In this document: in pieces, positions 44,969-61,734 of the stretch
Position numbering within the stretch: the first letter of the stretch is position 1
Layout: each line of letters opens with the position of its first letter
IMG/VR virus record: IMGVR_UViG_3300033142_001028
Location: 1-63,534 of that record
Reading direction: 5' to 3' (one strand)
Length of the DNA: 63,534 bases
DNA from: a virus
Translations under genes and position numbers: made by a program
The notes under the pieces: model-generated
Database searches by the model: none
What the model was told of the DNA's origin: nothing
Seen by the model: only the letters and a program-made list of their open reading frames with translations

Positions 44969-44972
44969 CATA

Positions 44973-46686: not shown

Positions 46687-46885
46687 ACGTTGGCTGAAAC
46701 GTAGATGCAGGGCAGATGAAAAACTTGTTTGTTGGGCAACGTTGCGTATAATAACTCGAGGTGAAACATATTACGAGTATCAGATGAACGGAACGAAGAT
46801 GAATAATATCATCATAAATGAAAAAGAATATTTTAAGCAAGCCCTATTAGGGTTTAAGGGATTTAAATTTTATGACAAAAATTAA
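46673..46885 (+). CDS. Small basic protein with F-x3-L-x-G tail
   Basis: A 70-residue protein with an Arg/Lys/Cys-rich start (ERWLKRRCRADEKLVCW) and NEKEYFKQALLGFKGF near its end. Third consecutive motif-bearing gene in this cluster. It overlaps the following gene by 14 bases. Confidence 0.6.
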   Translation: MDPTERWLKRRCRADEKLVCWATLRIITRGETYYEYQMNGTKMNNIIINEKEYFKQALLGFKGFKFYDKN

Positions 46886-47462
46886 AAGAATTTTACCTTT
46901 CGGTTGGTTTCCAGGACACTGGGGTCTAACAGGAAAAGTACGTGAAAGAGCAGAAGCAGAATACACACTCATTGGCGAAAGTCTCGACAAGAAAAATATC
47001 GAGATTAATCTTGGTGATCGAACTGATGAGGAAGTTGCAGTAGCATTACTTGAACACGAAGTAAAATACGGTAGGCTAACTCAGAAAGAACTTGACAAGC
47101 AAAGTGCAACTATTAAAAATGAACCTTGGGTGGATGTTAAGAATCTAGAAACAGATCCTGATAATCCTCGCTATGGCGGCGTTGAACTTGACTGGAATCA
47201 AGCATTCATTGACCACTTAGAGAAACATGGCTACGGTCCAAATCCAGATGATGAAGACACAGTTAATGATTGGTTCAACGATCTATGCAGAAACATTGCG
47301 TTAGATGCATATGATGGTGTTGGGGACTTTCAGGAACGAGTAGAGGATACTTCTCAGGTAGCTCGTCGTACAAACATACACGAAGACGCCATTCCTATAA
47401 ATATTGCTCCGCCGATTGATGGTGCAGAAAGTATAGAAGATATTGCAGACGATGATCTATAA
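46872..47462 (+). CDS. Conserved-type unknown protein, 196 residues
   Basis: The N-terminus ILPFGWFPGHWGLTGKVRERAEAEY resembles a protein found in other marine T4-like phages. Residues 50-140 are helical and acidic with DLCRNIALDAYDG, and the end is disordered and acidic. It lies just before the RNase H gene (one-base overlap). Function unknown. Confidence 0.55.
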   Translation: MTKIKRILPFGWFPGHWGLTGKVRERAEAEYTLIGESLDKKNIEINLGDRTDEEVAVALLEHEVKYGRLTQKELDKQSATIKNEPWVDVKNLETDPDNPRYGGVELDWNQAFIDHLEKHGYGPNPDDEDTVNDWFNDLCRNIALDAYDGVGDFQERVEDTSQVARRTNIHEDAIPINIAPPIDGAESIEDIADDDL

Positions 47463-48529
47463 TGAGTGATAAACAAAAATATATCTTAGTAGATGCAATG
47501 AACATGTTTCACAGAGCGAAGCATGTAGTCCATCGCGGCGACATTGACACCCGCATAGGTATGGCGCTACACATCATGTTTAATAGCCTACGCAAAGGCT
47601 GGCGTGACTTGGGCGGGCATCACGTTGTCTACTGTCTGGAAGGACGTAGCTGGCGCAAGGATGAATACAAAGAATACAAAGCCAATCGTGTAGTTGCACA
47701 ACTTAAGAAATCACAAAGAGAGCGCGAAGATGATGAATTATTCTTTGAGGCGTTCAATGAACTGAATAAATTTATACAAGAGAAAACCAATTCCACAGTA
47801 TTACAATGTCCTGTGGGAGAAGCAGATGATCTAATTGCAACATGGATTGATTTGCATCCTGAAAACGATCACATTATTATTAGTTCGGATTCAGATTTTG
47901 TACAACTGCTAGCACCTAATGTTGAGATTTATAACGGCATCACTGATGTCCGTTTTACAGATCAAGCAGCGTATGATGCAAAAGGACGCAAGTTAGAGTT
48001 AGCAGTTAAGAGTGACGGGAAACTCAAGGTAGGCAAGCCTGACGGATTTTTTCAAATGGATCAGGATGACTGGAACGAGTATGCCATGTTTCTGAAGTGC
48101 ATACGCGGCGATAAAAGTGATAACATTTTTCCTGCGTTTCCCGGTGCTCGCATCAAAGGAAGTAAAAACAAAACAGGTATATTGGAAGCTTGGGAAGATC
48201 GAAATGACGGCGGATATAACTGGAATAACTTTATGCAGCAAAGCTGGACAGATGTAGACGGCAACACGCATACAGTTAAAGATAGATATGAGGTCAATCG
48301 TAAACTAATTGATCTACACAGACAGCCTGATGATATAAAAGAAATGCTTGTGCAATCTATTCTCGATCACATAGATGCGCCGCGCAAGCAAGGTGTTGGC
48401 ATACATTTCTTGAAGTTTTGTTCAATGTGGGACTTAGATAAGATCGTAAGATATCCTGACGAATACGCAGGAATGCTTAACTCTACATACAACGATCATT
48501 TAAAAGAAATCGCAAAGGAAATAGCGTAA
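47462..48529 (+). CDS. rnh: 5'-3' exonuclease / RNase H (T4 Rnh-like, FEN family)
   Basis: A 355-residue PIN/FEN-like nuclease. LVDAMNMFHRA (Asp11), GEADDLIATWI, SSDSDFVQLL and RGDKSDNIFPAF carry the metal-binding acidic residues, and the last also matches the helix-hairpin-helix region of T4 RNase H. The protein removes RNA primers and flaps on the lagging strand. It is somewhat longer than T4 Rnh (305). It works with the polymerase, clamp and clamp loader found in this window. Confidence 0.9.
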   Translation: MSDKQKYILVDAMNMFHRAKHVVHRGDIDTRIGMALHIMFNSLRKGWRDLGGHHVVYCLEGRSWRKDEYKEYKANRVVAQLKKSQREREDDELFFEAFNELNKFIQEKTNSTVLQCPVGEADDLIATWIDLHPENDHIIISSDSDFVQLLAPNVEIYNGITDVRFTDQAAYDAKGRKLELAVKSDGKLKVGKPDGFFQMDQDDWNEYAMFLKCIRGDKSDNIFPAFPGARIKGSKNKTGILEAWEDRNDGGYNWNNFMQQSWTDVDGNTHTVKDRYEVNRKLIDLHRQPDDIKEMLVQSILDHIDAPRKQGVGIHFLKFCSMWDLDKIVRYPDEYAGMLNSTYNDHLKEIAKEIA

Positions 48530-48744
48530 TGGCGCATCATTCAGGAACTATTGAGATTGTCAAAATAACTGATTGGCATAAATGGTTCTCTATATTTAGT
48601 AAAATAGATATGCACGGTAAAAAAATAAGAGGATTTATGTATCGTCATCATGCGCAAGCATGGGATTGTGGTCACACAATAAACACTTATTCTTATGTGA
48701 CGCAAAAGGATATGTTCAAACTAAAATTAAAAGGAAGAGCATGA
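48529..48744 (+). CDS. Small WHKWF protein with F-x3-L-x-G tail
   Basis: A 71-residue protein with DWHKWFSIF and HGKKIRGFMYR, a degenerate form of the W-x-x-W/ITGK layout at 36753-39316, and the end TQKDMFKLKLKGRA. It overlaps the RNase H gene by one base and the next gene by four. Confidence 0.6.
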   Translation: MAHHSGTIEIVKITDWHKWFSIFSKIDMHGKKIRGFMYRHHAQAWDCGHTINTYSYVTQKDMFKLKLKGRA

Positions 48745-49235
48745 TTATACAATTAAAAGAAATCACAGACAGTAGTTGGTTAGTAATGACGGAAAAAGAA
48801 CAAGAAAAAATCGGATTACTAAGCACAAACAAATCGGGAAAATATCTTCTACTCACAAACGACGGCAAGGTGCAATTTGCAAATGATGAAGAGGTAAAGG
48901 ATTTCTTTGAGGAAGATGTCTTTAATAATATAGTTGTAACGAAGCTAGCTGAGGAGAAAGACTTTTTTATTAAAGGATTTCCAGTAGACTTCGATCATCC
49001 GTTTGAAGCTGATACAGAAGATGTAATTTCTACTCTTCCGCTATATACCAAAACAAAAAACAGTAAAGTCTTTCATTGTGCAGGTTACTATTGTGTTAAA
49101 TTCCCAAAAGGATGGATTCATTCTTTCTCACCTAAGCTATCAACTCTGCTAAAATATGAATATGTAGGTCCCCTTAAGACTGAAATGGAAATGAAGTCGA
49201 ATTTAAGCATATTGAAGAAGAACAAAAATAAATGA
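48741..49235 (+). CDS. Conserved-type unknown protein, 164 residues
   Basis: A soluble alpha/beta protein starting at 48741 (ATGA coupling with the previous stop). FIKGFPVDFDHPFEA, LPLYTKTKNSKVFHCAGYYC and FPKGWIHSFSPKLSTL form a pattern I associate with conserved proteins of T4-like phages, function unknown. It is the last gene before a late box. Confidence 0.55.
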   Translation: MIIQLKEITDSSWLVMTEKEQEKIGLLSTNKSGKYLLLTNDGKVQFANDEEVKDFFEEDVFNNIVVTKLAEEKDFFIKGFPVDFDHPFEADTEDVISTLPLYTKTKNSKVFHCAGYYCVKFPKGWIHSFSPKLSTLLKYEYVGPLKTEMEMKSNLSILKKNKNK

Positions 49236-49242
49236 TAAATAG
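49234..49242 (+). promoter_or_regulatory. T4-like late promoter box GATAAATAG
   Basis: GATAAATAG overlaps the stop codon of the preceding gene and ends 19 bases before the ATG at 49262. It should drive 49262-50759 late. Confidence 0.5.
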
Positions 49243-49261
49243 TAAGTAGGACACATATATT

Positions 49262-49462
49262 ATGGCAGACGAAATAAAAAACTTTCGTTTAAAAATACGC
49301 AATACAGCTAGTCTCAAACGGAGAGAATTATCATTTGGTTTGGCAGAAGCGCAGCTTCTAGATACCGAAATAGTTGCTCTTGAAGCACATATAGAAAAAT
49401 TAGAACTGGAGCTCCTACAGACAAAAACAATGTCCATTGATATTGTGGGACGTGATTTTTAA
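49262..49462 (+). CDS. Small helical protein, possibly structural
   Basis: A 66-residue protein starting MADEIKNFRLKIRNTASLKRR, followed by a coiled-coil-like helix (LLDTEIVALEAHIEKLELEL). It lies behind a late box. A small virion-associated role is inferred. Confidence 0.5.
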   Translation: MADEIKNFRLKIRNTASLKRRELSFGLAEAQLLDTEIVALEAHIEKLELELLQTKTMSIDIVGRDF

Positions 49463-49475
49463 ATGTGGAGTTTTA

Positions 49476-50531
49476 ATGAAAAGACTATTTATAGGGCTAG
49501 TCGCTCTATTGACAATCAGTACGGGGCAAGCACACGACTTAGCTGATAGAATGAATGAGGTGCTTCCTGCCGTTGCGTATATACGAGTAGAACAATTTGC
49601 TGTCCGCGATAAGCTAAATCCTCTTACCAAACTTACCTCTTCCATCCGAGTTCCAACCACACCTATCATTGGTACAGGATTTATCATTGATAATAACAAC
49701 GTAGTAACAAATTATCACGTTATTGCTTCCGCTGTAAAACATAATACTGAAATTCACATAACCTTTGAAGGAAGTAATCAACGATTTCTAGCAACAGTTA
49801 TTGGTTACGATAAAATAGCTGACGTTGCTTTGCTAATAATTCCAGGTGAACACCAAAGTGTTGAGATATTAGATGACACTGATTTACGGATGGGCGATCC
49901 CGTATTCAGCATATCACATTTTTATGGCATCGGTTGGTCAGGCACACAAGGTGTAATTAGTTCTATTCGCCGGCAAGATCAACGATATCCTTACATCAAT
50001 AACCTACAACTACAGCTATTGCAAGGCAGTGGTAGTTCAGGTGGCCCTGTATTCAATATGAATGGCGATGTCATTGCATTAAATCGAAGTATTCTTTCTA
50101 TGTTTCCAAAATCAATAATACAAACACGTAGTTCCGTTCTTTCTATGGTAGGCTATCCTGTAAGGGGAGATACATTGATAGCTGCAATCGCGGGCATACG
50201 CAAGGATATCATTGTCGTGTATCTTGATCTAGGAGTGTCATTGATAACATTTGGAAAGGATAGTATGTTTCACCTTAACTATGCAAATGGAGATGATGAA
50301 TACCCTATCGGCGTAATGGTAATGAGCATTGATAAAAATATATCTACTACTTTGCAACAATCAGATATTATTATCAGCATAGAAGGCAATAAATTCTCTG
50401 ATCCTTCTGAGTTGTTTACATGGCTTAATGAACAGATCAAATATAAAGTTGGAGATACAGTTAACATACAAGTTTACCGAGACGCAGAAATCATAAATAT
50501 TGCAGTACCAATAACAATAGCAGGATTATAA
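49476..50531 (+). CDS. Exported HtrA/DegP-like serine protease with PDZ domain
   Basis: A 351-residue protein; start 49476 chosen for GTGGAG upstream and a clean signal peptide MKRLFIGLVALLTISTGQA. The trypsin-like domain has the triad VTNYHVI (His81), ADVALLI (Asp116) and GSGSSGGPV (Ser188). Residues about 275-350 form a PDZ domain (GVMVMSIDKN, DIIISIEGN). It should act in the host periplasm. Exported proteases of this kind are unusual in phages and may have been captured from a bacterium. Confidence 0.85.
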   Translation: MKRLFIGLVALLTISTGQAHDLADRMNEVLPAVAYIRVEQFAVRDKLNPLTKLTSSIRVPTTPIIGTGFIIDNNNVVTNYHVIASAVKHNTEIHITFEGSNQRFLATVIGYDKIADVALLIIPGEHQSVEILDDTDLRMGDPVFSISHFYGIGWSGTQGVISSIRRQDQRYPYINNLQLQLLQGSGSSGGPVFNMNGDVIALNRSILSMFPKSIIQTRSSVLSMVGYPVRGDTLIAAIAGIRKDIIVVYLDLGVSLITFGKDSMFHLNYANGDDEYPIGVMVMSIDKNISTTLQQSDIIISIEGNKFSDPSELFTWLNEQIKYKVGDTVNIQVYRDAEIINIAVPITIAGL

Positions 50532-50759
50532 ATGGAACAAATCAAAGTTTACACGAAGAAACGCTGTCCGTATTGCACGGCGGCCAAACTATGGTTATCT
50601 CAAAGAAACTATGACTACACAGAAATTAGTCTCGATGATGCTGATGAACAAAACAAATTTATTTCCTGTTATCCTGCACTTCGAACTGTTCCGCAAATAT
50701 TTGTTGGGGATAAGAGCATTGGCGGGTTTAACGAACTTACCAAATCTAAACTTGCGTAA
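50532..50759 (+). CDS. grx: Glutaredoxin
   Basis: A 75-residue glutaredoxin with the CPYC active site at 12-15, TVPQIFVGD containing the cis-Pro at about residue 53, and SIGGFNEL for glutathione binding. It directly follows the HtrA-like gene. T4-like phages often use a glutaredoxin to supply electrons to ribonucleotide reductase; no reductase is in this window. Confidence 0.92.
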   Translation: MEQIKVYTKKRCPYCTAAKLWLSQRNYDYTEISLDDADEQNKFISCYPALRTVPQIFVGDKSIGGFNELTKSKLA

Positions 50760-50773
50760 TATGAAGTAGATTA

Positions 50774-50782
50774 GATAAATAC
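50774..50782 (+). promoter_or_regulatory. Late-type box GATAAATAC before a homing endonuclease
   Basis: An exact GATAAATAC only seven bases before the ATG at 50790. The transcript would be almost leaderless for that ATG, so the box may belong to the displaced downstream gene or the true start may lie further in. Confidence 0.4.
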
Positions 50783-50789
50783 TGTTATA

Positions 50790-51431
50790 ATGAATTACGA
50801 ATTTTACTATAACAGGCTGAATCAACGATCGGAAAATCGGTTGCTAGAAGGCTATACTGAGAAACATCATATTATCCCCCGCTGCATGGGTGGCACGGAT
50901 GATCCTGAGAACATTGCTATATTGACCGCTAGAGAACATCATATAGCACACCAGTTATTGGTTAAGATGTATCCTGGCCATCACGGATTGATCTCCGCAT
51001 TAAACGTAATGAGAACTGCTAGCAGTAAAAAGTATAGCTGGATTAAACGATTATGCCACGAACAATTATCTAAGAACTACAATGATCGTTATGGGGTTGA
51101 TCGAGCGAAAAAGATAAGGAATAAACAATCTGTTTCGAAGATGGGCAATACCAACGGGCGATTCGGAAAAGGATGGAAAGCTACACCCGAACAAAAAGCA
51201 AGGATGTCCGAGGCACATAAAGGACAACTCGCATGGAATAAGGGCAAGAAAACTGGACCACAGACCCACGAACGCATTTCTCATCGTGCTCGTAAATGTC
51301 AAAAATCTTGTACAGTCGATGGCATAAAATATTCTTCGCGCAATGAAGCTGCTGACAAATTAAATATTCATATCACCACTATATATAAATGGCTTGCAAG
51401 CGGGCGAGCAAAGGAACACACAAATGGCTAG
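50790..51431 (+). CDS. HNH homing endonuclease with NUMOD-type repeats
   Basis: A 213-residue paralogue of the protein at 14991: LLEGYTEKHHIIPRCMGG, ENIAILTAREHHIAHQLL forms the HNH core, then NUMOD3-like repeats (TPEQKARMSEAHKGQLAWNKGK) and a C-terminal helix-turn-helix of NUMOD1 type (SSRNEAADKLNIHITTIYKWL). The C-terminal domain differs from 14991, so these proteins have exchanged DNA-binding ends. Confidence 0.85.
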   Translation: MNYEFYYNRLNQRSENRLLEGYTEKHHIIPRCMGGTDDPENIAILTAREHHIAHQLLVKMYPGHHGLISALNVMRTASSKKYSWIKRLCHEQLSKNYNDRYGVDRAKKIRNKQSVSKMGNTNGRFGKGWKATPEQKARMSEAHKGQLAWNKGKKTGPQTHERISHRARKCQKSCTVDGIKYSSRNEAADKLNIHITTIYKWLASGRAKEHTNG

Positions 51432-51720
51432 ACCGAAACCGACAATTATTCTAGAACATACTGATTCAAAAACATACAAGAGCGAGCAAGTTCTTCAAGC
51501 GGACTATATCTATGCAGTATACTTTGACGGGCGACCTATCAATCTTCGAACATTGAATTCTCTTGTCAACTATCCTGGCCCTAAATATAAAAAAGTCAGT
51601 TTTTCAAATTCTGGTCATGCGTTCAATCTAGCAGAGCGCCTTAATCGTATATTCAAGACAGATTCATTTGCTGTATGGAAACTAACTGGTGGTGAAATTA
51701 TAACCGAAGATACAATATAA
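51424..51720 (+). CDS. Unknown small protein, 98 residues
   Basis: Start 51424 has AAGGA upstream and gives MARPKPTIILEHTDSKTYK, an N-terminus more sensible than the longer frame inside the endonuclease gene. The middle is beta-type (YIYAVYFDGRPINLRTL). A helix near residue 72 (AFNLAERLNRIFKT) and a final LTGGEII are seen. No family is recognised. It overlaps the end of the homing endonuclease gene by eight bases. Confidence 0.5.
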   Translation: MARPKPTIILEHTDSKTYKSEQVLQADYIYAVYFDGRPINLRTLNSLVNYPGPKYKKVSFSNSGHAFNLAERLNRIFKTDSFAVWKLTGGEIITEDTI

Positions 51721-51721
51721 G

Positions 51722-52090
51722 ATGGCCGCTGAACATATCCAACCGTTAAAAGATTTCATATTCAGTGAATTAAACGAAGATGTGTTTCCAGAAGAAACTC
51801 ATAAATCATTAGATGGACTCATGTTCAACGCGCCTACTACTTTGCGCCTGACTCATTTTGGCTATAATATTTTAAGAAATATCTACGATCACGAAAAATT
51901 TCCTCTTGAAGAAAAGCTAACTGGTCGAGAATTATTGACACTCAAAAATCATGTGACTTGGCCTTACTATCTTCCTGGGAGTCATGCTAATCTTTTCCTG
52001 TTTACCATCAAACAATCATTCATTCTCAAACTCAACGGTGGAGATGTGAAAAAGTGGCTCAAAAATCTATATGAGAAGAATTCCAGTTAA
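51722..52090 (+). CDS. Unknown phage protein with F-x3-L-x-G near its end
   Basis: A 122-residue protein with TTLRLTHFGYNILRNIYDH, FPLEEKLTGRELLTL and a C-terminal KQSFILKLNGGDVKKWL, which fits F-x-x-x-L-x-G. The general look is of a small alpha/beta phage protein. It is the last gene before a sigma70-like promoter region. Confidence 0.5.
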   Translation: MAAEHIQPLKDFIFSELNEDVFPEETHKSLDGLMFNAPTTLRLTHFGYNILRNIYDHEKFPLEEKLTGRELLTLKNHVTWPYYLPGSHANLFLFTIKQSFILKLNGGDVKKWLKNLYEKNSS

Positions 52091-52146
52091 AACAACGACT
52101 TAAGTACAGGTGTCGTAAGTTATTGATTCTTATGGATATAAAGTGC

Positions 52147-52175
52147 TTGACATAAGTGCTTGATTCCTGTAATAT
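52147..52175 (+). promoter_or_regulatory. Sigma70-like promoter
   Basis: TTGACA at 52147-52152 and TAATAT at 52170-52175, spacer 17 bases. AGGAG lies before the ATG at 52223. The unit is short and closed by a terminator at 52568, so this may be a strongly expressed monocistronic transcript. Confidence 0.7.
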
Positions 52176-52222
52176 AAGCACAATGGTATAGAACTATGTC
52201 ATAGATACAGGAGAAATTCATA

Positions 52223-52546
52223 ATGGCGATTAATCGACGCAAAACAGAAGAAGTACGCACAAGCACTCTAGCCGATGGCACGAGTGTAGAATGCGTAGTA
52301 TGGGCAATTGAGCTAGACGGCGAACAGGTCGGCGAAGCTTGTGCTACATACAAGACAAAGACCCAGCGCACCTGGGATGCTAGCATGACCGTTGACGGAG
52401 TTTCAGTTTCGGTAGAAGGCATTGCTTCAATTAGCAAGGCCGTAACTGCATTGAACGATCAGTTGGTAGCTGCAACGGCTACTGATGCTGCTGATACAGC
52501 GGATGCTAACATTGAGATTGTTGAGTCTGAGGACGCTACAGCGTAA
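52223..52546 (+). CDS. Unknown protein in its own transcription unit
   Basis: A 107-residue acidic protein with two beta-rich repeats (GTSVECVVWAIELDGEQVGEA, then WDASMTVDGVSVSVEGIASI) and an Ala/Thr/Asp-rich end. It has a private sigma70-like promoter, a strong ribosome binding site and a terminator, marks of an abundant early product. No family is recognised. Confidence 0.6.
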   Translation: MAINRRKTEEVRTSTLADGTSVECVVWAIELDGEQVGEACATYKTKTQRTWDASMTVDGVSVSVEGIASISKAVTALNDQLVAATATDAADTADANIEIVESEDATA

Positions 52547-52567
52547 TCTACTCCTTTCCAAGTAAAG

Positions 52568-52592
52568 AGGCCCCGCTAAGGGGCCTTTTTTA
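52568..52592 (+). terminator. Rho-independent terminator
   Basis: AGGCCCC (52568-52574) pairs with GGGGCCT (52580-52586) around a five-base loop, followed by a T-run. It closes the unit of 52223-52546. Confidence 0.92.
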
Positions 52593-52688
52593 TACCTGTA
52601 AGGAATTCAATGACTTAATACGTGTACGTAACTATCTGTTTTTAAAGAGTTTCCACTTAAGTGCTTGATGTTAAACAGGTTATAGTTG

Positions 52689-52717
52689 TTGACAAATGGC
52701 GCGCAGTTCCATATAAT
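52689..52717 (+). promoter_or_regulatory. Sigma70-like promoter for the MoxR gene
   Basis: TTGACA at 52689-52694 and TATAAT at 52712-52717, both consensus, spacer 17 bases. A 57-base leader follows before the ATG at 52775. The 228-base gap from 52547 otherwise holds the terminator and AT-rich sequence. Confidence 0.9.
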
Positions 52718-52774
52718 ACACATACTAGATAGACAAACGCAAGTCACATAAACGATTAATAAGGAACACGCACC

Positions 52775-53887
52775 ATGGCTAAGACAGACACGAATCAAAA
52801 AAGCATTCCAGTTCGACCTTCTGAACTTGTAGAAGTAGTCGAGCATGTAATGTCAGTAGGCCGTCCTTGCATGATTTGGGGACCGCCAGGAATCGGCAAA
52901 TCAGACATTATCGCACAGATCGGAGCGAGAGAGAATCGTCCCGTGATCGACCTGCGTTTGCTCTTGATGGAGCCGACTGACCTTAAAGGCATCCCTTTCT
53001 ACGATCCGAAGACGGAAACGATGAAGTGGGGCAAGCCAGGTGAGCTTCCAGGTGAGGCCGATACAGAACTGCATAACGCTATTCTGTTCCTTGACGAGAT
53101 TAACGCTGCACCGCAGTCGGTTCAGGCCGCTGCATATCAGTTGATTCTGAATCGCAGAATTGGCGAGTACGAGCTTCCTGAATGTGTAAGTATCGTTGCT
53201 GCTGGTAACAGAGAGACTGATCGCGCAGTAACTTTTCGCATGCCGTCAGCACTTGCTAACAGGTTCATGCACTTTGAATTGATCGTATCTTTCGAAGATT
53301 GGCAGGACTGGGCAATTCGACACGGCGTACATCCTGACGTAGTTGGTTTCTTGACTGCGCATCCGAACTACTTGTTCCAGTTTGATCCGAAGAGTGGCGA
53401 CAAGGCTTTTGCTACTCCGCGTTCGTGGACGTTCGTTGGAGAGGCTCTGACTGACAAGCTTTCTGACAAGCTGAACGAAGTCATGGTCGCTGGCACAGTT
53501 GGTCTTGGACTCGCTACTGAATTCATGCAGAGCAGGCGCTTGAAAGGCAAGCTTCCGAATCCTCGCGACATCGTGTTGGGCAAGGTTACTAAGCTGAAGG
53601 AAGACAAAGCGATTGACGTTTCTGCTAAGTACTCGCTGGTTATCGGCATGTGCTACGCAATGTCTGAAATCAAGCAAGAGTTTGAAATGGACAAGTCTAA
53701 GGGTGACAAGGACTGGAACAAGGTCACTGACAACTTTTTGAAGTTTATGATGATCCCTGAACACTTCAAGAAGGAAATGGTCATCATGGCTGCTGTTACA
53801 GCATTCCGTCGCTACGACTTGGACTTCGATTCTGAGACTCCCACTTTCAACAAATTCTTCAAAGAGTACCAAGAGTGGATTGTCTAA
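52775..53887 (+). CDS. MoxR-type AAA+ ATPase
   Basis: A 370-residue protein with Walker A GPPGIGKS at 36-43, Walker B AILFLDEIN at 102-110 followed by QAAAYQLIL, and AAGNRETD (sensor 1). It resembles the MoxR/RavA and CbbQ groups, which remodel VWA-domain partners; the next long gene encodes such a partner. Codon use is richer in G/C-ending and highly expressed codons than neighbouring genes. It has its own consensus promoter and terminator. Confidence 0.88.
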   Translation: MAKTDTNQKSIPVRPSELVEVVEHVMSVGRPCMIWGPPGIGKSDIIAQIGARENRPVIDLRLLLMEPTDLKGIPFYDPKTETMKWGKPGELPGEADTELHNAILFLDEINAAPQSVQAAAYQLILNRRIGEYELPECVSIVAAGNRETDRAVTFRMPSALANRFMHFELIVSFEDWQDWAIRHGVHPDVVGFLTAHPNYLFQFDPKSGDKAFATPRSWTFVGEALTDKLSDKLNEVMVAGTVGLGLATEFMQSRRLKGKLPNPRDIVLGKVTKLKEDKAIDVSAKYSLVIGMCYAMSEIKQEFEMDKSKGDKDWNKVTDNFLKFMMIPEHFKKEMVIMAAVTAFRRYDLDFDSETPTFNKFFKEYQEWIV

Positions 53888-53925
53888 ATGGTTAACTGGT
53901 GCAACGTGACTTGCGCTATGATTGG

Positions 53926-53958
53926 CCGCCCCGAGACTTTCTTTGGGCGGTCTTTTTT
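53926..53958 (+). terminator. Rho-independent terminator after the MoxR gene
   Basis: CCGCCC (53926-53931) pairs with GGGCGG (53945-53950) around a 13-base loop, followed by TCTTTTTT. It lies 38 bases after the MoxR stop. Confidence 0.85.
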
Positions 53959-54072
53959 ATGAGATTCAAACAGTTACAGGCGCTCGTAAGTCATTGATTC
54001 TATTAGAGCAGAAATACTCCAAAAATAGTTATAAGTTATTGATAACTATAGTAATAGAGATGCATAAAGTGG

Positions 54073-54101
54073 TTGACGCAAGGGGTGTTTTACCGTATAA
54101 T
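54073..54101 (+). promoter_or_regulatory. Sigma70-like promoter for the VWA gene
   Basis: TTGACG at 54073-54078 and TATAAT at 54096-54101, spacer 17 bases, 29 bases before the ATG at 54131. It probably drives the run through RtcB and beyond. Confidence 0.85.
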
Positions 54102-54130
54102 ATGTATATAAATTGATAGGAACTAATCAA

Positions 54131-55618
54131 ATGTCACAGAAGTTTTCCCCAGAAGATAAATTAGTCAAAGCACGTATTATTTACAACGATTGCGTGTTTC
54201 TCGGCAACTTAGCACTTCGACTTGAATTGGTCGATGCTACCGCATGGTGTCCTACTGCGGCAACTGACTTCAAGCATTTGTACTACAATCGAGATTTTAT
54301 TGATCGTTGTTCACTTGAAGAAACCAAATTTGTGATTGCACACGAGGTTATGCATTGTGTGTACGATCACTTTTCTCGTCGTGAGGAACGTGATCCGCGT
54401 CTGTACAATTGTGCTGGCGACTACGTAATTAACTTGGAACTGAAGGATCTTGGAATCGGTTCTTTTCCTTCCAGTAATACCATGATGGATCCGAAGTACG
54501 AAGAATTCATCAAAGAGAATTTCCCTGAGCGTTACCGAAAGTATAAGAAAGAATTTGCTGGTGGTGAGCCAGGTGTGCTTTGCGAAGAAAAGTATCGCGA
54601 TATGTCTTCTGAGGAAGTCTACAACATCCTAAAGAAAGAACAGGATGAGCGGGACAAGCAGAATGGTAAAGGCGAGAGCGACGGCCAGTGTGGCGAATGT
54701 GGCGGTACTGGACAGGCCCCAGGCGATCAAGGTGAAGGCGATCAAGATGGTGAAGGCGAAGGTGGCAGCGGCCAATGTGGCGGAAGCACCCCAGGTGATT
54801 GCCCGTCTTGTGGTGGTTCTGGCAAGAGTAAAGGCGGCCAGAACGGACCAATTTCACACGATATGCATATGGATCCTGAGGCTGGTGATGCTGATGGTGA
54901 CGAAAATGATGGCTCGCAAGGTCCGATCAAGATTGACCAAGAAGAAATTGATCGGATGGACAGCGATATGCGTAAAGCGATCATGGACGCAGCAGCAGTT
55001 GCATCCGAAGCACGTGGTGGCGCAGGTAACATCCCAGGTGGTGTTAAGCGTCTGATTGATGATTGGACAGATTCTACAGTTGACTGGCGCGAGTATTTGA
55101 ATAACAGCATTCAGTCAACTTTGAAGTCAGATTACACATGGCAGCGTCAGAGCAGGAAGTCTCGCTCTACGAATTACTACTTGCCTGCAATGGACAACGA
55201 TATGATGGTTAGTGTCGATCTTGCGATTGATACGTCAGGTTCAATGTCTGATGAAATGTTGAGAGACATTCTTGCAGAGGTTAAAGGTATCATGGAGCAG
55301 TTCGCAGACTTCAAGCTTCGTGTATGGTGCTTCGATACTGAAACGTATGAAGTTCACACGTACACACCTGACACGGTTGATGAGATTTATGACTTCGAGT
55401 TAGAAGGTGGCGGTGGTACGATGTTTGAGTGCAATTGGGAAATGATGCGTCAGGAAGAAATTGTTCCAGATCAGTTCATTCTCTGCACAGACGGTTACCC
55501 CTGCGGAACTTGGGGCGAAGAGGATTACTGCGATACAGTATTCTTGGTGCACGGTCGTAAGAGCATTGTTGCTCCCTTCGGTGTTACGGTACATCACGAA
55601 AACGCTACTGACGATTAA
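54131..55618 (+). CDS. VWA-domain putative metallopeptidase, MoxR partner
   Basis: A 495-residue protein. HEVMHCVYDH (His71 to His75) is an HExxH zinc site, and AGDYVINLEL follows, as in DUF2201-type proteins. Residues about 175-245 are a Gly/Asp/Cys-rich, zinc-ribbon-like linker (CGECGGTG, CPSCGGSG). The C-terminal VWA domain carries the MIDAS motif DTSGSMS from 367. Paired with the MoxR ATPase, it recalls MoxR-VWA two-part systems. Start 54131 is preferred over an upstream ATG with no ribosome binding site. Codon use is like the MoxR gene. Confidence 0.85.
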   Translation: MSQKFSPEDKLVKARIIYNDCVFLGNLALRLELVDATAWCPTAATDFKHLYYNRDFIDRCSLEETKFVIAHEVMHCVYDHFSRREERDPRLYNCAGDYVINLELKDLGIGSFPSSNTMMDPKYEEFIKENFPERYRKYKKEFAGGEPGVLCEEKYRDMSSEEVYNILKKEQDERDKQNGKGESDGQCGECGGTGQAPGDQGEGDQDGEGEGGSGQCGGSTPGDCPSCGGSGKSKGGQNGPISHDMHMDPEAGDADGDENDGSQGPIKIDQEEIDRMDSDMRKAIMDAAAVASEARGGAGNIPGGVKRLIDDWTDSTVDWREYLNNSIQSTLKSDYTWQRQSRKSRSTNYYLPAMDNDMMVSVDLAIDTSGSMSDEMLRDILAEVKGIMEQFADFKLRVWCFDTETYEVHTYTPDTVDEIYDFELEGGGGTMFECNWEMMRQEEIVPDQFILCTDGYPCGTWGEEDYCDTVFLVHGRKSIVAPFGVTVHHENATDD

Positions 55619-55619
55619 A

Positions 55620-56006
55620 ATGTATCAGATGGTCAATCATAACGGCAACAAGGCTTACGAAGTCGATAATAAGCTTTATCAGACTCAAATGGAAGCTAAA
55701 GTTGATATTCAAGTGCAAAGGGCGAAGATTGATATAGAAATATTGCGTCTTGAGCAACAGCGAATAGCAGACTTTAGAAAAAAAGTTGGCCTTACTTTGC
55801 TAGAGAATGATGCAAGTGTCATGTTCACAAAGACAAGACAAGCAGTAATCGAATTGGCATTTGCTCACGAAATGGGAAAGACTCAGTACGTGATAGACCA
55901 AGCAGCATTAGCAGTTGCAAATACTCGCACAATGTACGACTCAGTTTGCAGAAAGATTTTTAAGATTTGTTTGAAGCATGGACTCAAGAGTGAGCATTTA
56001 AAATGA
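55620..56006 (+). CDS. Helical unknown protein, 128 residues
   Basis: Start 55620 lies two bases after the VWA stop. The protein is nearly all helix with coiled-coil character (QVQRAKIDIEILRLEQQRIADF) and a basic end (KIFKICLKHGLKSEHLK). No family is recognised. The frame extends upstream inside the VWA gene, but that part is a shadow. Confidence 0.5.
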   Translation: MYQMVNHNGNKAYEVDNKLYQTQMEAKVDIQVQRAKIDIEILRLEQQRIADFRKKVGLTLLENDASVMFTKTRQAVIELAFAHEMGKTQYVIDQAALAVANTRTMYDSVCRKIFKICLKHGLKSEHLK

Positions 56007-56257
56007 CTTTAGGTGAAATAGTAAATAAGCGTCAACTTGACCTTAGACTTGAAAAGGCAGAAGCAGAATTGCAGTCTGCCTTAAGAGTGCTTGACTACTT
56101 GCTAAAAGAATCGGCCGCGACATTGTTTGGATATGAGCGTAAGCCGAATCATAAAGAACGTTGTTATGCTAACGCCAAGTCACTTGACGTAGCACACGAA
56201 AAAATTGAGAAGTGTAAGAAAGAATTGTTTCAATTCAAATTGAAACACGGTGAATGA
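56003..56257 (+). CDS. Small coiled-coil protein with motif-like tail
   Basis: An 84-residue helical protein ending KKELFQFKLKHGE, similar to the recurrent tail but with one extra residue before Gly. Residues 10-35 form a coiled coil (LDLRLEKAEAELQSALRVL). It is coupled to the previous gene as ATGA and lies just before rtcB. Confidence 0.5.
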   Translation: MTLGEIVNKRQLDLRLEKAEAELQSALRVLDYLLKESAATLFGYERKPNHKERCYANAKSLDVAHEKIEKCKKELFQFKLKHGE

Positions 56258-56267
56258 GAGAAGAAAG

Positions 56268-57521
56268 ATGGCTAAGAAAATACAAAATTATGAAGTAATG
56301 AAAGGTTTGTCTGGACAAGGCATTATCAAGTCTTGGACAAAGGGCGTTCCGTTTGAGTCACAAGCGCGGGATCAGCTAAAGAATATTGCATCGTTGCCGT
56401 TCATCCACAAGCATGTAGCAGCGATGCCTGACGTACATTTAGGTAAGGGCGCGACGGTTGGGTCAGTAATTGCAACTAAGGGTGCGATTATTCCTGCTGC
56501 GGTAGGAGTAGATATTGGTTGCGGAATGAATGCTGTACGACTTTCGTTGAAAGCTGCGGATTTGCCTGACACATTAACAAACGTGCGCGGAGAAATTGAG
56601 CGCATGGTTCCTGTTGGTCACGACTATCACACACGTTCGCGTATGGGATCAAAGTGGCACAACAAGACTGACAAGCTTTTGAACAACACTAACCAGCAGT
56701 TAGACCCAGGAATGCGGTCGATTCTTGCAAAGCATCCTACGATTGGTAAGATAGGTCGTGACTTTGAAGATCGCGCATACCGTCAGATTGGTACGCTTGG
56801 TGGTGGTAATCACTTTATTGAACTTTGCTTAGACGAGGCGGATGATGTTTGGGTAATGCTTCACTCAGGTTCACGTAATCCAGGAAACTGTATCGGCAAC
56901 TATTTCATTCAGCTTGCTAAGAAAGAAATGGAACGATTCTTCATTCAGCTTCCTGATAAGGATTTAGCATACTTGGCCGAAGGCACAGAGTACTACGATG
57001 ATTATATCGAAGCTGTTGGCTGGGCGCAAGACTTTGCATATCGTAATCGACAGGTTATGATGGAACTTGTAATCATGGCACTGGAGCGCAAGCTGCCGCC
57101 GTTCTTGATTACTAAGGAAGCAATCAACTGTCACCACAACTATGTTTCGATGGAGAATCACTTCGGTGCGAATGTACACGTAACTCGCAAGGGTGCTGTA
57201 CGTGCGCGTGTAGGCGACTACGGAATTATTCCAGGATCAATGGGTGCTAAGTCATTCATCGTTCGCGGACTTGGTAACAAGGATTCATTTAACTCTTGCT
57301 CTCACGGAGCAGGACGTTCACATTCACGATCAGCGGCTAAGCGATTGTTTACAGTCGAGGATCACGAACGAGCTACGGCAGGTGTTGAGTGTCGTAAGGA
57401 TGCTGGTGTGCTTGATGAGACACCTGCTGCTTACAAGGACATTGATGCTGTTATGAATGCTCAGAGAGATTTAGTTGAGATTGTTCACACGTTGAAGCAA
57501 GTAGTCTGCGTAAAAGGATAA
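56268..57521 (+). CDS. rtcB: RNA ligase RtcB
   Basis: A 417-residue RtcB protein. MPDVHLGKGATVGSVI, VGVDIGCGM (Asp82 and Cys85, Mn ligands), GGGNHFIE and SCSHGAGRSHSR with the guanylylated His at about 346 are all present. RtcB joins 2',3'-cyclic-phosphate or 3'-phosphate RNA ends to 5'-OH ends and could repair tRNAs cut by host anticodon nucleases. No archease gene is next to it. Start 56268 is chosen because an upstream ATG encodes a poor N-terminus. Confidence 0.95.
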   Translation: MAKKIQNYEVMKGLSGQGIIKSWTKGVPFESQARDQLKNIASLPFIHKHVAAMPDVHLGKGATVGSVIATKGAIIPAAVGVDIGCGMNAVRLSLKAADLPDTLTNVRGEIERMVPVGHDYHTRSRMGSKWHNKTDKLLNNTNQQLDPGMRSILAKHPTIGKIGRDFEDRAYRQIGTLGGGNHFIELCLDEADDVWVMLHSGSRNPGNCIGNYFIQLAKKEMERFFIQLPDKDLAYLAEGTEYYDDYIEAVGWAQDFAYRNRQVMMELVIMALERKLPPFLITKEAINCHHNYVSMENHFGANVHVTRKGAVRARVGDYGIIPGSMGAKSFIVRGLGNKDSFNSCSHGAGRSHSRSAAKRLFTVEDHERATAGVECRKDAGVLDETPAAYKDIDAVMNAQRDLVEIVHTLKQVVCVKG

Positions 57522-57525
57522 GATA

Positions 57526-57801
57526 ATGAGTGAAAGAGACTGTTCAGCAAAAAACATAATGCAGATGATTGGATTCTGTTGGGTATTATTCATTGGTCTT
57601 GCATTCGTTACTGGTTGTAGCGAACCAACGCCACAAGAAAGATTTGAAACTTATGTTGCTAATACAGGCACTCCGAATGGTGCAACTAACATCGAAATCA
57701 TAGATGAAAAGTGGTACACATTTGAGTACAACGATCAGTGTTTCTTGGCAACGAGATACTGGCGTCACGCTGCATTAACGAAAATTGATTGCGAGGATTA
57801 A
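57526..57801 (+). CDS. Small lipoprotein
   Basis: A 91-residue protein with a hydrophobic segment (MIGFCWVLFIGLAFVTGC) ending in the lipobox VTGC, so it is probably lipidated. The mature part is about 60 residues with two further Cys that could pair. The charged 13-residue N-terminus is long for a signal peptide. A role in superinfection exclusion is possible but not shown. Confidence 0.55.
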   Translation: MSERDCSAKNIMQMIGFCWVLFIGLAFVTGCSEPTPQERFETYVANTGTPNGATNIEIIDEKWYTFEYNDQCFLATRYWRHAALTKIDCED

Positions 57802-58005
57802 ATGAATTTCTTAGACGCTAAGGAACTACAGAAACATGCGATGAAGGCCAAGTATGGCTGGCGTAGGTTCTTTATTCCTACACCCAGGTCCATTAAGAAC
57901 GATGCATTTAATACTGCCTTTCGCATCAGAAATAATGGTGGTCGGCCAGAAGAACAAACTTCGGCACGACTAGACTTTGTACGTAAGTATCCGATAAAGG
58001 ATTAG
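57802..58005 (+). CDS. Small basic unknown protein
   Basis: A 67-residue protein rich in Arg, Lys and aromatic residues (YGWRRFFIPTPRSIKND, later TAFRIRNNGG). It begins immediately after the lipoprotein stop. Nucleic-acid binding is possible from the charge; no family is recognised. Confidence 0.45.
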   Translation: MNFLDAKELQKHAMKAKYGWRRFFIPTPRSIKNDAFNTAFRIRNNGGRPEEQTSARLDFVRKYPIKD

Positions 58006-58006
58006 A

Positions 58007-58318
58007 ATGAGTTTTTGCTCACATTGCGGATCGAAGAACGCACCTGTAACACCATCTGCTAACAAAGGATATACGATGTATGTTGCAGAGGAAGGTGAAT
58101 CTTGTACAGAATGTTACGATCCTGATATTGAAATGTTAATGTGCGATGATTGTAACGGAATAACTTACAAAAGCATCAGCATCACTCCGCCACCGATGTC
58201 CAATCCCAAAACAACTAAGATTCTGGGTGGCATAGGCTCGCGGAAGGTGTTGTGGCTTATTGGTGGCGAGTGGGTCGAGAAAGGCTGGCTCTTGCCGCAG
58301 GTAGGTTCAGATGTTTAA
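58007..58318 (+). CDS. Zinc-ribbon unknown protein
   Basis: A 103-residue protein with CSHCGSK, CTECYD and CDDCNG, three Cys pairs that can bind one or two zinc ions in residues 4-50. The C-terminal half has a beta-type end (KVLWLIGGEWVEKGWLLP). No family is recognised. Confidence 0.5.
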   Translation: MSFCSHCGSKNAPVTPSANKGYTMYVAEEGESCTECYDPDIEMLMCDDCNGITYKSISITPPPMSNPKTTKILGGIGSRKVLWLIGGEWVEKGWLLPQVGSDV

Positions 58319-58649
58319 ATGGAACACAGACAAGATTAGTTCAGATTTGCTAGACATTCCTAATGTCGAAGCGGTCATTGAACACGACCCTGGCGGGGAT
58401 GTAGACACTAGCAACCTTCTCGCTAAAGTAACTGGCGCAGACGAATACATTTATGTGTGCGGGTTTAGTGTTGACAATGTTATCACTGATCCTAGAGACA
58501 CTGACATTGAAATGGTCGAAATTACAGATCAAAGCGGTGACGGGTTACAAAGCATCGACTTTGAGGTCGCGCGGGCGTATATAGCCGTACGTCAATATTT
58601 CGTAGGGCAGAATGTAGAAGTCGTTAACAGACTAAAGGATTATTTCTAA
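58311..58649 (+). CDS. Acidic unknown protein
   Basis: A 112-residue, strongly acidic protein with a beta-type core (NLLAKVTGADEYIYVCGFSVDNV) and a C-terminal helix. No known domain. It overlaps the previous gene by eight bases and the next by one. Confidence 0.5.
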   Translation: MFKWNTDKISSDLLDIPNVEAVIEHDPGGDVDTSNLLAKVTGADEYIYVCGFSVDNVITDPRDTDIEMVEITDQSGDGLQSIDFEVARAYIAVRQYFVGQNVEVVNRLKDYF

Positions 58650-58753
58650 TGAATGATACAATAGTATTACTTATCATGTTCTCGCCAGTCTTTAGCATGT
58701 GCATATATAATGCGATCACCATGTGTGAAGCATTGAAGACAAAGGAAAGTTGA
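58649..58753 (+). CDS. Tiny single-span membrane protein
   Basis: A 34-residue frame: MNDTIVLLIMFSPVFSMCIY, then a short polar end. It starts at a TAATG overlap and is followed by the ribosome binding site and start of the next gene. One membrane span is likely. Confidence 0.4.
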   Translation: MNDTIVLLIMFSPVFSMCIYNAITMCEALKTKES

Positions 58754-58754
58754 T

Positions 58755-59033
58755 ATGACTTGTAAATGTGGAAGTACACGCATCGCAGGAGTGGGTGCAA
58801 AATGTTCTGATTTATGTTATACTACATTACCTGGCCGTAAAGATATTGACGGTTATGTGGTAAATGGGCTTGGCATCGGCGGTGGCGACTATGTAGAATT
58901 CGACTACTGCCTCGACTGTGGGCAACTACAGGGAACGTTTCCAATCACTGAGAAGTCGATCAGCGAAGCGTTGGATGACGCAGGTCTCTCCGAAAGAGAA
59001 TACGACGAAGACGGATTTGAGGTACGAACATGA
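58755..59033 (+). CDS. Zinc-ribbon small protein
   Basis: A 92-residue protein beginning MTCKCGSTRIAGVGAKCSDLC, with YCLDCGQLQG in the middle: two Cys pairs in the layout of a conserved phage zinc-ribbon family. The C-terminus is acidic. AAGGAAAG lies just upstream of the start. Confidence 0.55.
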   Translation: MTCKCGSTRIAGVGAKCSDLCYTTLPGRKDIDGYVVNGLGIGGGDYVEFDYCLDCGQLQGTFPITEKSISEALDDAGLSEREYDEDGFEVRT

Positions 59034-59278
59034 ATATTACAATAGAATCAATTATGAATGCATGGTTGCCGATTTCGGTATTCTACTTTGTATATTTTAT
59101 ACTTTGCCCGATGTTAGCTATGTCTGGTAATCGCTGGATAAACAAAGCAACTGGTGCTGAAAAACGCAAGCGATATTGGCAGGGCGTTCGTTGGGCATCA
59201 GGCATGTTTCATATTGCAGCAGTACTTGCGGGGTTACTGTTGTGGGTTTTACATCCTTACATGTTTCCCGCACAATAA
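59030..59278 (+). CDS. Membrane protein with two spans
   Basis: An 82-residue protein with hydrophobic segments at about 10-32 (AWLPISVFYFVYFILCPML) and 56-76 (ASGMFHIAAVLAGLLLWVL), separated by a basic loop (EKRKRYWQGVRW). No family is recognised. ATGA coupling with the previous gene. Confidence 0.5.
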   Translation: MNITIESIMNAWLPISVFYFVYFILCPMLAMSGNRWINKATGAEKRKRYWQGVRWASGMFHIAAVLAGLLLWVLHPYMFPAQ

Positions 59279-59302
59279 ATTAACTGGAGGAAATACAGAT
59301 TA

Positions 59303-59644
59303 ATGCAGTATTTTAAATGGCAAGAAGGTCGGCAGAAAAGTGGCTACGATAAGATGCTCCTTATTCAAAATACCTTCCTTCTTCCATTTGATTGCTACAT
59401 TATTCGCTATCGTGAAGGTTCAGAGATTGATACGCACACTGATCCTGTAGAAGGAAAAGAACATCACAGAATCAACATTGTATTAAAAAATGCGGAGTAT
59501 GGCGGGCACTTCTGGTGCAACGACGAAGAATCCTTAAACATATTTAATCGCATTATTTATTTTCGACCAGACAAATTTGAACACTCAGTTTCAAAAATAC
59601 TATTTGGAACTCGGTATGTACTAAGTATAGGATGGGTTAAGTGA
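59303..59644 (+). CDS. Minimal 2OG-Fe(II) oxygenase
   Basis: A 113-residue protein with the full facial triad of the family: His45 and Asp47 in THTDP, His94 in EHSVSK, and Arg104 in GTRYVLSIGW for 2-oxoglutarate. IIRYREGSEI before and GGHFW between are as in prolyl-hydroxylase-like phage proteins. Such short versions are common in marine phages; substrate unknown. GGAGG precedes the start by about 12 bases. Confidence 0.8.
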   Translation: MQYFKWQEGRQKSGYDKMLLIQNTFLLPFDCYIIRYREGSEIDTHTDPVEGKEHHRINIVLKNAEYGGHFWCNDEESLNIFNRIIYFRPDKFEHSVSKILFGTRYVLSIGWVK

Positions 59645-60024
59645 GCGCAATAACAGAGCCGAATAGCAAAGAGCAATTCCTCAAACTTTTAAGTGGTAAG
59701 GAAATTGCGAGAGACAAATTCGGAACAGTAATCAATATTGATGATATTGTTGTGTTTGGCTCAGGTGTGAAAAGCGGTCCAGATTTGAATTACGGGCTCG
59801 TAACTAAAATAAATTACAATAATATAGATGAGAAGACTGGCGAAGAAAAAGTATCTACTGTTGGTGTGCGAAAATGTCAAAAAAGCTGGGGTGCTAATGG
59901 CGTTTATAAACTGAACCTACATAGAGTTTCGATTAAGCGATGGGAGAATACTTGGGTCATTACTGAGTTTACACCGCAAGAAGTTAAAGATGCTATCAAA
60001 GCAGGAAACAACATAAAGAAATGA
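59641..60024 (+). CDS. FGTP tandem family, copy 1, with N-terminal F-x3-L-x-G motif
   Basis: A 127-residue protein starting at GTG 59641, overlapping the oxygenase stop. KEQFLKLLSGKEIARDKFGTVI near the start combines the recurrent motif with the family signature (A-x-D-x-F-G/D-T). A beta-barrel-like body follows (DIVVFGSGVKSGPDLNYGLV). The four members at 59641, 60185, 60567 and 60947 lie in tandem. Confidence 0.6.
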   Translation: MSAITEPNSKEQFLKLLSGKEIARDKFGTVINIDDIVVFGSGVKSGPDLNYGLVTKINYNNIDEKTGEEKVSTVGVRKCQKSWGANGVYKLNLHRVSIKRWENTWVITEFTPQEVKDAIKAGNNIKK

Positions 60025-60188
60025 TTATAGCAACACTAGAAATGTGGCAGGATGGACAAGATGAACCTGTTAAGGAATTCGATAAAGAGTTTCCGAGCAT
60101 GGCACATATGCATCAATGGTTGAATATTCAAGCGCAACATCCATTTATGTGGCTCATATTAATAGGTACGACGGAGATAAATGAATGA
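60021..60188 (+). CDS. 55-residue unknown protein
   Basis: A short frame starting as ATGA on the previous stop and ending over the next start. The sequence starts MIIATLEMWQDGQDEPVKEF and has a hydrophobic segment near the end (PFMWLILIGT). It is inserted between two tandem paralogues. No family is recognised. Confidence 0.45.
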   Translation: MIIATLEMWQDGQDEPVKEFDKEFPSMAHMHQWLNIQAQHPFMWLILIGTTEINE

Positions 60189-60586
60189 TAATGGAAGCAA
60201 CGGAAGCTGATCGCAAACGGATTGAATTCGTAAGTAAACTCAAAGACAAACCGTATGCGTGTGACATATTTAATAGAGCAATACAACCTGGGGACATTCT
60301 AATCTTTGGTACTGGAACGCAGAGTGCAGCAGGATTGAACTTCGGACTTGTCGAAAAATTCAATTACAAAACTGCAACTCAATATACTTACACTCATAAA
60401 ACTGGTGAAGATTATGTTTCGTCAGTAACAGTCAAAGTTGCAACTGTACGAAACGACATCATACGATTGCAGAATCGACGCGGGCTTGCATCATTTAGAG
60501 AAGCCTGCATTCTAGACAATCCGCCAGAAAATATTATGGATGTATTTGTTGAGTGGGAGGAAAGCAATGTCAAGCGCAAAAGATAA
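60185..60586 (+). CDS. FGTP tandem family, copy 2, with N-terminal F-x3-L motif
   Basis: A 133-residue member: RIEFVSKLKDKPYACDIFNR at the start, then GDILIFGTGTQSAAGLNFGLV and a barrel-like body resembling copy 1 closely (GSGVKSGPDLNYGLV there). The motif has Asp at the Gly position. The last part (PPENIMDVFVEWEE) matches the family end P-x-E-x-x-D-x-F. Confidence 0.6.
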   Translation: MIMEATEADRKRIEFVSKLKDKPYACDIFNRAIQPGDILIFGTGTQSAAGLNFGLVEKFNYKTATQYTYTHKTGEDYVSSVTVKVATVRNDIIRLQNRRGLASFREACILDNPPENIMDVFVEWEESNVKRKR

Positions 60587-60947
60587 ACAAGTATTCACTG
60601 AATCGCTCAAAGGTCTTAAGACAGCTAGAGACCGCTTCGGAACGCCAATCGCTGCTGGCGAAATCATTGCGTATGCTACTGTTCAGTGGAAAAGCCCGAT
60701 AATGAAAGTCGCAAAAATTATAGAAGTAAAACGCAAAGAAGGAACTAAGATGGTGAATCAGGGTGGTAAATGGGTTTCAACTCCTGACCAAAAAGTTACT
60801 TTGCGTGTTCAGGGTGCGATGAAATCATCTTGGGATGAAGACGGAAAATGGGAATTACAGAATGCGTCTACACTAAAGAAAATAGAAAACGTGATTATAC
60901 TCACTGATCCTGTCCAAGAAGTTGTAGACTTGTTTAAAGATATTTAA
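60567..60947 (+). CDS. FGTP tandem family, copy 3, with N-terminal F-x3-L-x-G motif
   Basis: A 126-residue member starting at 60567 (GGGAGG upstream). DKQVFTESLKGLKTARDRFGTP at the N-terminus is the clearest combination of motif and signature. The end is VIILTDPVQEVVDLFKDI. Copies 3 and 4 share this end, copies 1 and 2 share the middle. Confidence 0.6.
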   Translation: MSSAKDKQVFTESLKGLKTARDRFGTPIAAGEIIAYATVQWKSPIMKVAKIIEVKRKEGTKMVNQGGKWVSTPDQKVTLRVQGAMKSSWDEDGKWELQNASTLKKIENVIILTDPVQEVVDLFKDI

Positions 60948-61707: not shown

Positions 61708-61734
61708 AGTAGTCTAGACTGTTAGCGGCGAGTA

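Follow-up and report, generated by a model that had tools for sequence, protein, structure and literature searches.

The virus record IMGVR_UViG_3300033142_001028 of IMG/VR (63,534 bases, analysed at full length and referred to here as the window) carries a gene for a MoxR-type AAA+ ATPase followed by a gene for a protein that joins a metallopeptidase-like N-terminal domain to a C-terminal VWA domain. The pair belongs to a kind of phage MoxR and metallopeptidase-VWA pair that is already published, since a linked MoxR pair was reported in 2007 and a 2021 jumbo-phage survey describes such pairs. The HExxH motif of the second protein is almost invariant among the phage proteins sampled while a cellular clade has lost its catalytic residues, and in the phage group of the window both genes share the trait of private promoter-like sites. 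We propose, with a rough probability of 0.45, that the two genes encode an early-to-middle AAA+ remodelling machine able to clip its client. The original prediction, made from the nucleotide sequence alone, had placed the pair in a phage, which agrees with the T4-type DNA polymerase and clamp loader genes found in the window. Among the eight of 2583 matching records that were listed for the polymerase, the best was Sinorhizobium phage Phosso (42.7% identity), and the others were also phages, with genomes larger than 340 kb.

Both open reading frames (ORFs) of the predicted pair were present, and Pfam placed AAA_5, DUF2201_N and DUF2201 above their cut-offs. All features of the pair given here lie on the plus strand. 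The MoxR gene (52775..53887, 370 amino acids) matched AAA_5 with 29 bits (cut-off 22; 1.2e-6) and PHROG 1297 at 5.9e-98, and its product has the Walker A sequence GPPGIGKS and the Walker B sequence LFLDE. The Walker A pattern was found in 91 of 93 MoxR proteins, window included, the exceptions being Phosso and N4, and Walker B was found in all 93. Midasin, at 4.9e-7, was the sole solved sequence matching the ATPase at E 0.01 or better. The bpMoxR domain of Pfam, which belongs to the MoxR-vWA-beta-propeller ternary system, scored 15.4 bits in the window MoxR, below its cut-off of 27, and in NCBIfam MoxR had a single weak match, far under the cut-off, and the VWA protein had no match. A role as a component of a defence system was rejected, as PADLOC returned only a weak IetA match for MoxR (0.0035) and none at 0.01 for the VWA protein.

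The second gene (54131..55618) encodes a protein of 495 amino acids. The coordinates originally predicted held apart from the start of this gene: an ORF can also be read from a TTG at 54113, but the product from the ATG at 54131 is likelier because an AGGA stretch immediately precedes that ATG. The protein matched DUF2201_N, a putative metallopeptidase, at 1.9e-39 (136.3 bits, cut-off 23.2), the C-terminal VWA-like DUF2201 at 1.2e-12 (48.5 bits, cut-off 26.4) and PHROG 1314 at 2.1e-101. The intact zinc and metal-binding motifs that had been noticed are there. The zincin-like HEVMH occupies residues 71-75 of the N-terminal domain (54341..54355), and it is followed by D97 and N101 (54419..54433), identified by alignment and located in a helix seen in the structural model (residues 89-107). 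D97 is proposed as the third zinc ligand. The metal-ion-dependent adhesion site (MIDAS) has DTSGS at residues 367-371 (55229..55243) and is complete, with D367, S369, S371 and, further on, T430 and D454. A Cys/Gly-rich linker (54689..54811) with two CxxCGG motifs, starting at C187 and C224, had also been pointed out. It is real but not conserved: among 81 phage proteins it is confined to that of the window and that of a contig matching the window at 100%, one other contig has a single such CxxC, and the linker was ruled out as a conserved part of the protein.

These 81 phage VWA proteins were those of the window, its duplicate contig (L002), L003, L004, nine cultured phages and 68 contigs. The lack of a conserved zinc site in homologues had been set beforehand as one of two refuting checks, and the prediction came through this one, with HExxH in 80 of the 81 proteins (H71 and H75 in 81/81, E72 in 80/81). 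H80, D97 and N101 were present in all 80 proteins with a letter at those positions, and so were the MIDAS residues wherever the alignment had a letter (D, S and S in 72/72; T and D in 69/69). The conservation of HExxH, D97, N101 and the MIDAS extends to phages just 23% identical to the window. Seven further phages, six of them cultured and the seventh the cyanophage S-TIM66 (motifs HEVLH and DTSGS), all have HExxH; one of the six cultured phages, Rhizobium N38, is without H80.

The cellular relatives gave a different picture. The 67 VWA proteins from genome contigs had H75 in 67, N101 in 66, H80 and D97 in 64 each, but H71 in 33 and E72 in 30. In a tree of 130 of the 148 sequences (a single FastTree run, midpoint rooted, after removal of partial sequences and of any with at least 600 residues), 32 losses of the catalytic pair fell in one clade with support 1.0. 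The titles in this clade were Campylobacterota-type in 30 cases and just "bacterium" in two. Its members are without H71 and E72, and they retain H75, N101, mostly H80 and D97, the MIDAS and the MoxR neighbour. Three more proteins (Desulfobacterium, Desulfovibrio and a delta proteobacterium) retain H71 and are without E72. L094 and L096, contigs whose titles name Rickettsiales and Planctomycetota metagenome genomes, fell inside the clade of phage sequences and probably represent phage DNA misbinned with bacteria; L134 also stood among the phages. Judged from these sequences, the VWA protein persists in some bacteria without its catalytic pair, whereas the sampled phages almost never lose it.

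The two genes travel together, as the original prediction had suggested should be looked for across phages. In tblastn searches at 1e-5, 810 of 50,697 phage records matched MoxR and 701 matched the VWA protein. Viral loci were the best 80 of at least 591 confirmed viral-contig loci found with the MoxR alignment. The VWA gene was present in 68 of them, always on the same strand and downstream of MoxR (68/68), with a gap of 300 bases or less in 52 loci, 301-3000 in ten and more than 3000 in six. In the 12 loci that show no VWA gene the contig stops 1 to 6,292 bases beyond MoxR, and it is on these contig ends that the case for a lost view of the gene is based; whole-record searches of those 12 records found it in 0/12, an empty answer that is uninformative by itself. 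Order and strand were also kept in PA5oct, Phosso, Atu_ph07, 121Q, phage G, LIT1, N4, SCTP-2, phiFa, DSS3phi2, Vibrio phage 2.275.O, CR3, Rhizobium N38 and S-TIM66. Among the cultured phages up to nine genes lie between the two (phage G), and in S-TIM66 the VWA-peptidase gene comes directly after MoxR. In the best 80 of at least 482 confirmed genome-contig loci, the VWA gene was found in 67, on the same strand in all 67 and downstream in 64.

Each gene had been predicted to have its own strong promoter, and this proved correct at the level of sequence. A terminator-like hairpin with a U run (52564..52591; -19.0 kcal/mol, z -4.57) is followed by a sigma70-like promoter, TTGACA-17-TATAAT (52689..52717; 12/12 consensus matches), and MoxR. 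A second terminator-like hairpin with a U run (53924..53958; -19.6 kcal/mol, z -4.95) then precedes a second sigma70-like promoter, TTGACG-17-TATAAT (54073..54101; 11/12), and the VWA gene. For both hairpins, none of 200 shuffles folded as well as the native RNA. A loose scan of 44500-63534 showed no excess (43 found, 45.1 expected), but sites with at least 11 of 12 matches in the whole window numbered 13 on the plus strand, where 1.45 were expected from 200 simulations using the dinucleotide frequencies of the window, and one on the minus strand. When the window was counted together with its related loci, sites with 11 or 12 consensus matches stood upstream of MoxR in 62/79 and upstream of the VWA gene in 44/67, compared with 6/392 for nine neighbouring families pooled and 136/879 for the remaining plus-strand ORFs; the cultured loci L005-L013 were omitted from the named-family counts and included in the "remaining" count, and the counts are not independent because the loci are related and were chosen by similarity to the window MoxR. 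A repeat with slightly different stretches and the window excluded gave 61/79 for MoxR, 47/70 for the VWA gene and 42/1000 for random stretches. The motif TATAAATA, which we take to be the late-promoter motif of T4, showed no enrichment, with 7 copies in the window against an expectation of 4.98, so that early and late genes could not be contrasted within the window.

The model of the full-length VWA protein had a mean predicted local distance difference test score (pLDDT) of 81.2 and a predicted template modelling score of 0.66, with the linker disordered (residues 185-236 below pLDDT 50). It matched VWA domains, with a best Z of 12.6 (root mean square deviation 2.7, 137 residues), and the 20 top Foldseek matches included the MIDAS domains of MDN1 and Rea1. 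The alignments used for structure prediction, A3 and A4, held 72/121 and 58/121 of the full-length sequences. Since VWA domains filled the listed structure matches of the whole protein, the N-domain was modelled separately, from a relative (L016) rather than the window protein. The resulting model (251 amino acids, pLDDT 85.1) had as top matches selecase (Z 6.1), jannalysin (5.8) and abylysin (5.7), over 96-101 residues with deviations of about 4, and it also matched 6mdw, a DNA-protein-crosslink repair protease (Z 5.3). The top seven matches are metalloproteases, two of which, 6mdw and BlaR1, we presume to be such; low-Z matches (ArdC 4.2, ERAP1 4.3 and others) were not used. A sequence search of the window protein separately picked out selecase, at E 0.0085 and covering the HExxH. 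The zincin fold gains weight from these two lines of evidence, and we hold it to be likely for the N-domain, short of proof.

In the mechanism that we propose, MoxR would form an ATP-driven AAA+ ring, as its family suggests, and the VWA protein would serve as its adaptor. The MIDAS metal of midasin grips an acidic residue, and the MIDAS of the VWA protein may in the same way hold an acidic residue on the client or the ring. Driven by ATP hydrolysis, a segment of the client would be pulled loose and exposed, where it could be cut by the N-terminal zincin, with H71, H75 and probably D97 as zinc ligands and E72 as general base. Both proteins would probably be made in the early to middle phase, because each gene has its own promoter-like site of the host sigma70 type. 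With expression at that time, a complex of the host, or an early one of the phage, would be the likeliest client. A narrower version, which we regard as unlikely, is that phages retain a catalytically intact form of a cellular MoxR/VWA chaperone, make both of its parts from private promoters of the host type as infection begins, and use it to take apart and clip one specific host complex, for instance a transcription, translation or defence assembly, the ATPase perhaps being carried in with the particle.

A number of observations weigh against the clipping machine or against parts of it. Promoter-like sites are not transcripts, and exonuclease (16/49) and QueE (9/30) neighbours also often carry strong ones. 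The arrangement of the pair is not universal. Phage nomine, whose taxonomy line makes it vequintavirus-type, has its annotated MoxR genes at a distance of 3.4 kb from the VWA gene and in the opposite orientation. The positions of the two tblastn matches show the same for bov25_3, with 3.7 kb between them, and for KB57, with 5.0 kb (here VWA was matched in record KT934943 and MoxR in NC_028659). We take bov25_3 and KB57, from recall and similarity, to be vequintavirus-type as well, and such phages may make up a sizeable part of the phage records with the pair. The N-domain reached a best Foldseek E of 0.021, none at 0.001, and its Z of about 6 is in the range, below 8, that may reflect merely a common arrangement. 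A demonstrated activity, complex or client of the pair was not found in the open-licence literature. The catalytic motif is not without exception in phages either, since Agrobacterium phage Atu_ph07 (L007; VWA gene 4944-6233) has HQ in place of HE, a natural HQxxH variant that is possibly inactive.

The Atu_ph07 protein would suit a chaperone or metal-insertion factor that does not cut and whose metal site has a structural or a metal-delivering role. So would the 32-protein cellular clade, which lost H71 and E72 yet retains H75, N101 and the MIDAS, and the MoxR-vWA systems described so far, whose work is for the most part assembly or the insertion of metal clusters (PMC7159879; this and the other papers cited are quoted from parts of their text). 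An unused site would be expected to drift, as it did in that clade, and therefore the exact HExxH in 80/81 phage proteins and in 7/7 further phages speaks against a non-catalytic site; HE is also retained by other cellular proteins (30/67). We hold this alternative to be distinctly unlikely. The "actual proteolysis" of the original prediction is still an inference: the HExxH is intact, but no assay was found in the literature searches, Atu_ph07 has the variant site, and a cellular clade keeps the protein and its MoxR neighbour without the catalytic pair. A different function is given to the VWA protein by PHROG 1314 and many phage records, namely HNH endonuclease. This has the label alone in its favour, and it is scarcely credible: Pfam finds a metallopeptidase and a VWA domain and no HNH at E 0.01 in the window protein, and likewise in N4 gp25 and S-TIM66, and the fold matches are VWA and zincin. 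The record of N4 gp25, YP_950503.1, is among those labelled "HNH endonuclease", a label that the Pfam and fold evidence contradicts.

The role that has been proposed in print is in the particle. For such a pair in group 2.2 jumbo phages, virion assembly with processing was suggested because of a parallel in a two-tailed archaeal virus (PMC7824862), that is, the pair would assemble tail or head parts and the zincin trim structural proteins. Mass spectrometry of phAPEC6 virions lists an ATPase, gp265c, of 49.52 kDa with 6 peptides and 19.0% (PMC7247149), and the MoxR of 121Q, a genome 98.94% identical to phAPEC6, computes to 49.51 kDa, which fits gp265c. In the record of PA5oct the MoxR carries the flag "ESI-MS/MS", and in 121Q, PA5oct and S-TIM66 the pair has structural genes close by. 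The N4-like phage RPP1 encodes four of its virion proteins close to its homologues of gp24/gp25 (PMC4193335). These observations tell against the clipping machine proposed above. However, the phAPEC6 list also includes thymidylate synthase, whose 121Q counterpart computes to 35.51 kDa, equal to the listed value, so that non-structural proteins may have been carried over into the particles; the VWA gene of phAPEC6 would presumably be gp264c, which the main text as available does not mention (PMC7247149). In the relatives of the window both genes carry host-type promoter-like sites, and gp24/gp25 of N4 are middle transcripts (PMC4193335). Replication or nucleotide-metabolism genes stand beside the pair in N4, LIT1 and DSS3phi2, and the surroundings are mixed in Rhizobium N38. 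An assembly or maturation machine seems to us possible, if on the unlikely side.

Upstream of MoxR are two small conserved plus-strand genes, at 51424..51720 and 51722..52090 (the latter with a weak PHROG 15638 match), whose families occur in 65/92 and 68/92 neighbourhoods and have strong promoter-like sites of their own in 1/63 and 0/64 cases, respectively. A gene for a ClpA/ClpB-type double AAA+ ATPase with a Clp_N domain (17982-20306) has its own 12/12 promoter-like site at 17910-17938. About 2.2 kb upstream of MoxR, at 49437-50531, there is a gene for an HtrA-like trypsin-fold protease with a PDZ domain and a possible signal peptide. Homing-endonuclease-like genes were seen at 50790-51431 and 14991-15656, one of which sits within the conserved neighbourhood upstream of MoxR. 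Downstream of the pair are genes for an RtcB RNA ligase (56250-57521) and for a protein of the Band 7/SPFH type (61787-63295). An IMP dehydrogenase/GMP reductase-like gene (10849-11958) and a QueE-like gene (44973-45887) hint at nucleotide or base-modification metabolism.

Phage pairs of this type have been noticed before. In 2007, orf66 and orf63 of Bacillus phage 0305phi8-36 were named two linked subunits of a MoxR-type metalloprotein chaperonin (PMC2147016), and the 2021 survey found that in group 2.2 jumbo phages MoxR is paired with a vWA protein to which a metallopeptidase is fused at the N-terminus (PMC7824862). The phage function, called open in the original prediction, is so experimentally, as searches of the open-licence literature turned up no experimental test of what the pair does, but both the pair and a suggested role had been published before (PMC7824862). 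The essentiality of N4 gp24/gp25 was looked for in the CRISPRi-ART paper, where, in the text available, the genome-wide screens covered four other phages (T4, T5, SUSP1 and PTXU04) and N4 appears for the rIIA/rIIB knockdown and in the methods (PMC11879866). The S-CREM1 paper discusses a cyanophage MoxR, and "vwa" does not occur in its available text (PMC9964418). The promoter trait and the contrast in HExxH between phages and cells are absent from the prior descriptions as far as the accessible parts of the open-licence literature go. The MoxR-VWA pair is a common module of large phages (701-810 of 50,697 records), the peptidase-VWA half of which is often labelled "HNH endonuclease", and the near-strict catalytic conservation in phages against its loss in a cellular clade, together with the private promoters, makes proteolysis and timing directly testable.

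The closest known systems share different parts of this design. The pair of the group 2.2 jumbo phages, likened here by its description (PMC7824862), has in common the MoxR AAA+ protein and a vWA partner with an N-terminal metallopeptidase, in large phages; the window adds its private Cys/Gly linker. The likeness to orf66/orf63 of 0305phi8-36, a linked MoxR-type pair, is by description alone (PMC2147016). N4 gp24/gp25 (PHROG 1297/1314) share the adjacency, the order and the intact HExxH and MIDAS, and gp25 matches DUF2201_N at 3.1e-87. N4 differs in being an N4-type phage with 28% identity to the window in MoxR and 23-25% in the VWA protein, a shorter linker, and a gp24 without the standard Walker A pattern. 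In RavA-ViaA and midasin/Rea1 a MoxR-type AAA+ module likewise acts with a MIDAS VWA module, and midasin is the closest solved sequence of the window MoxR, but it is one giant chain. We know of no zincin domain in either system. Selecase (MJ1213), jannalysin and abylysin share, with modest scores, the HExxH helix and likely the fold of the N-domain, but these are short chains of about 104-112 residues without a VWA domain or an ATPase.

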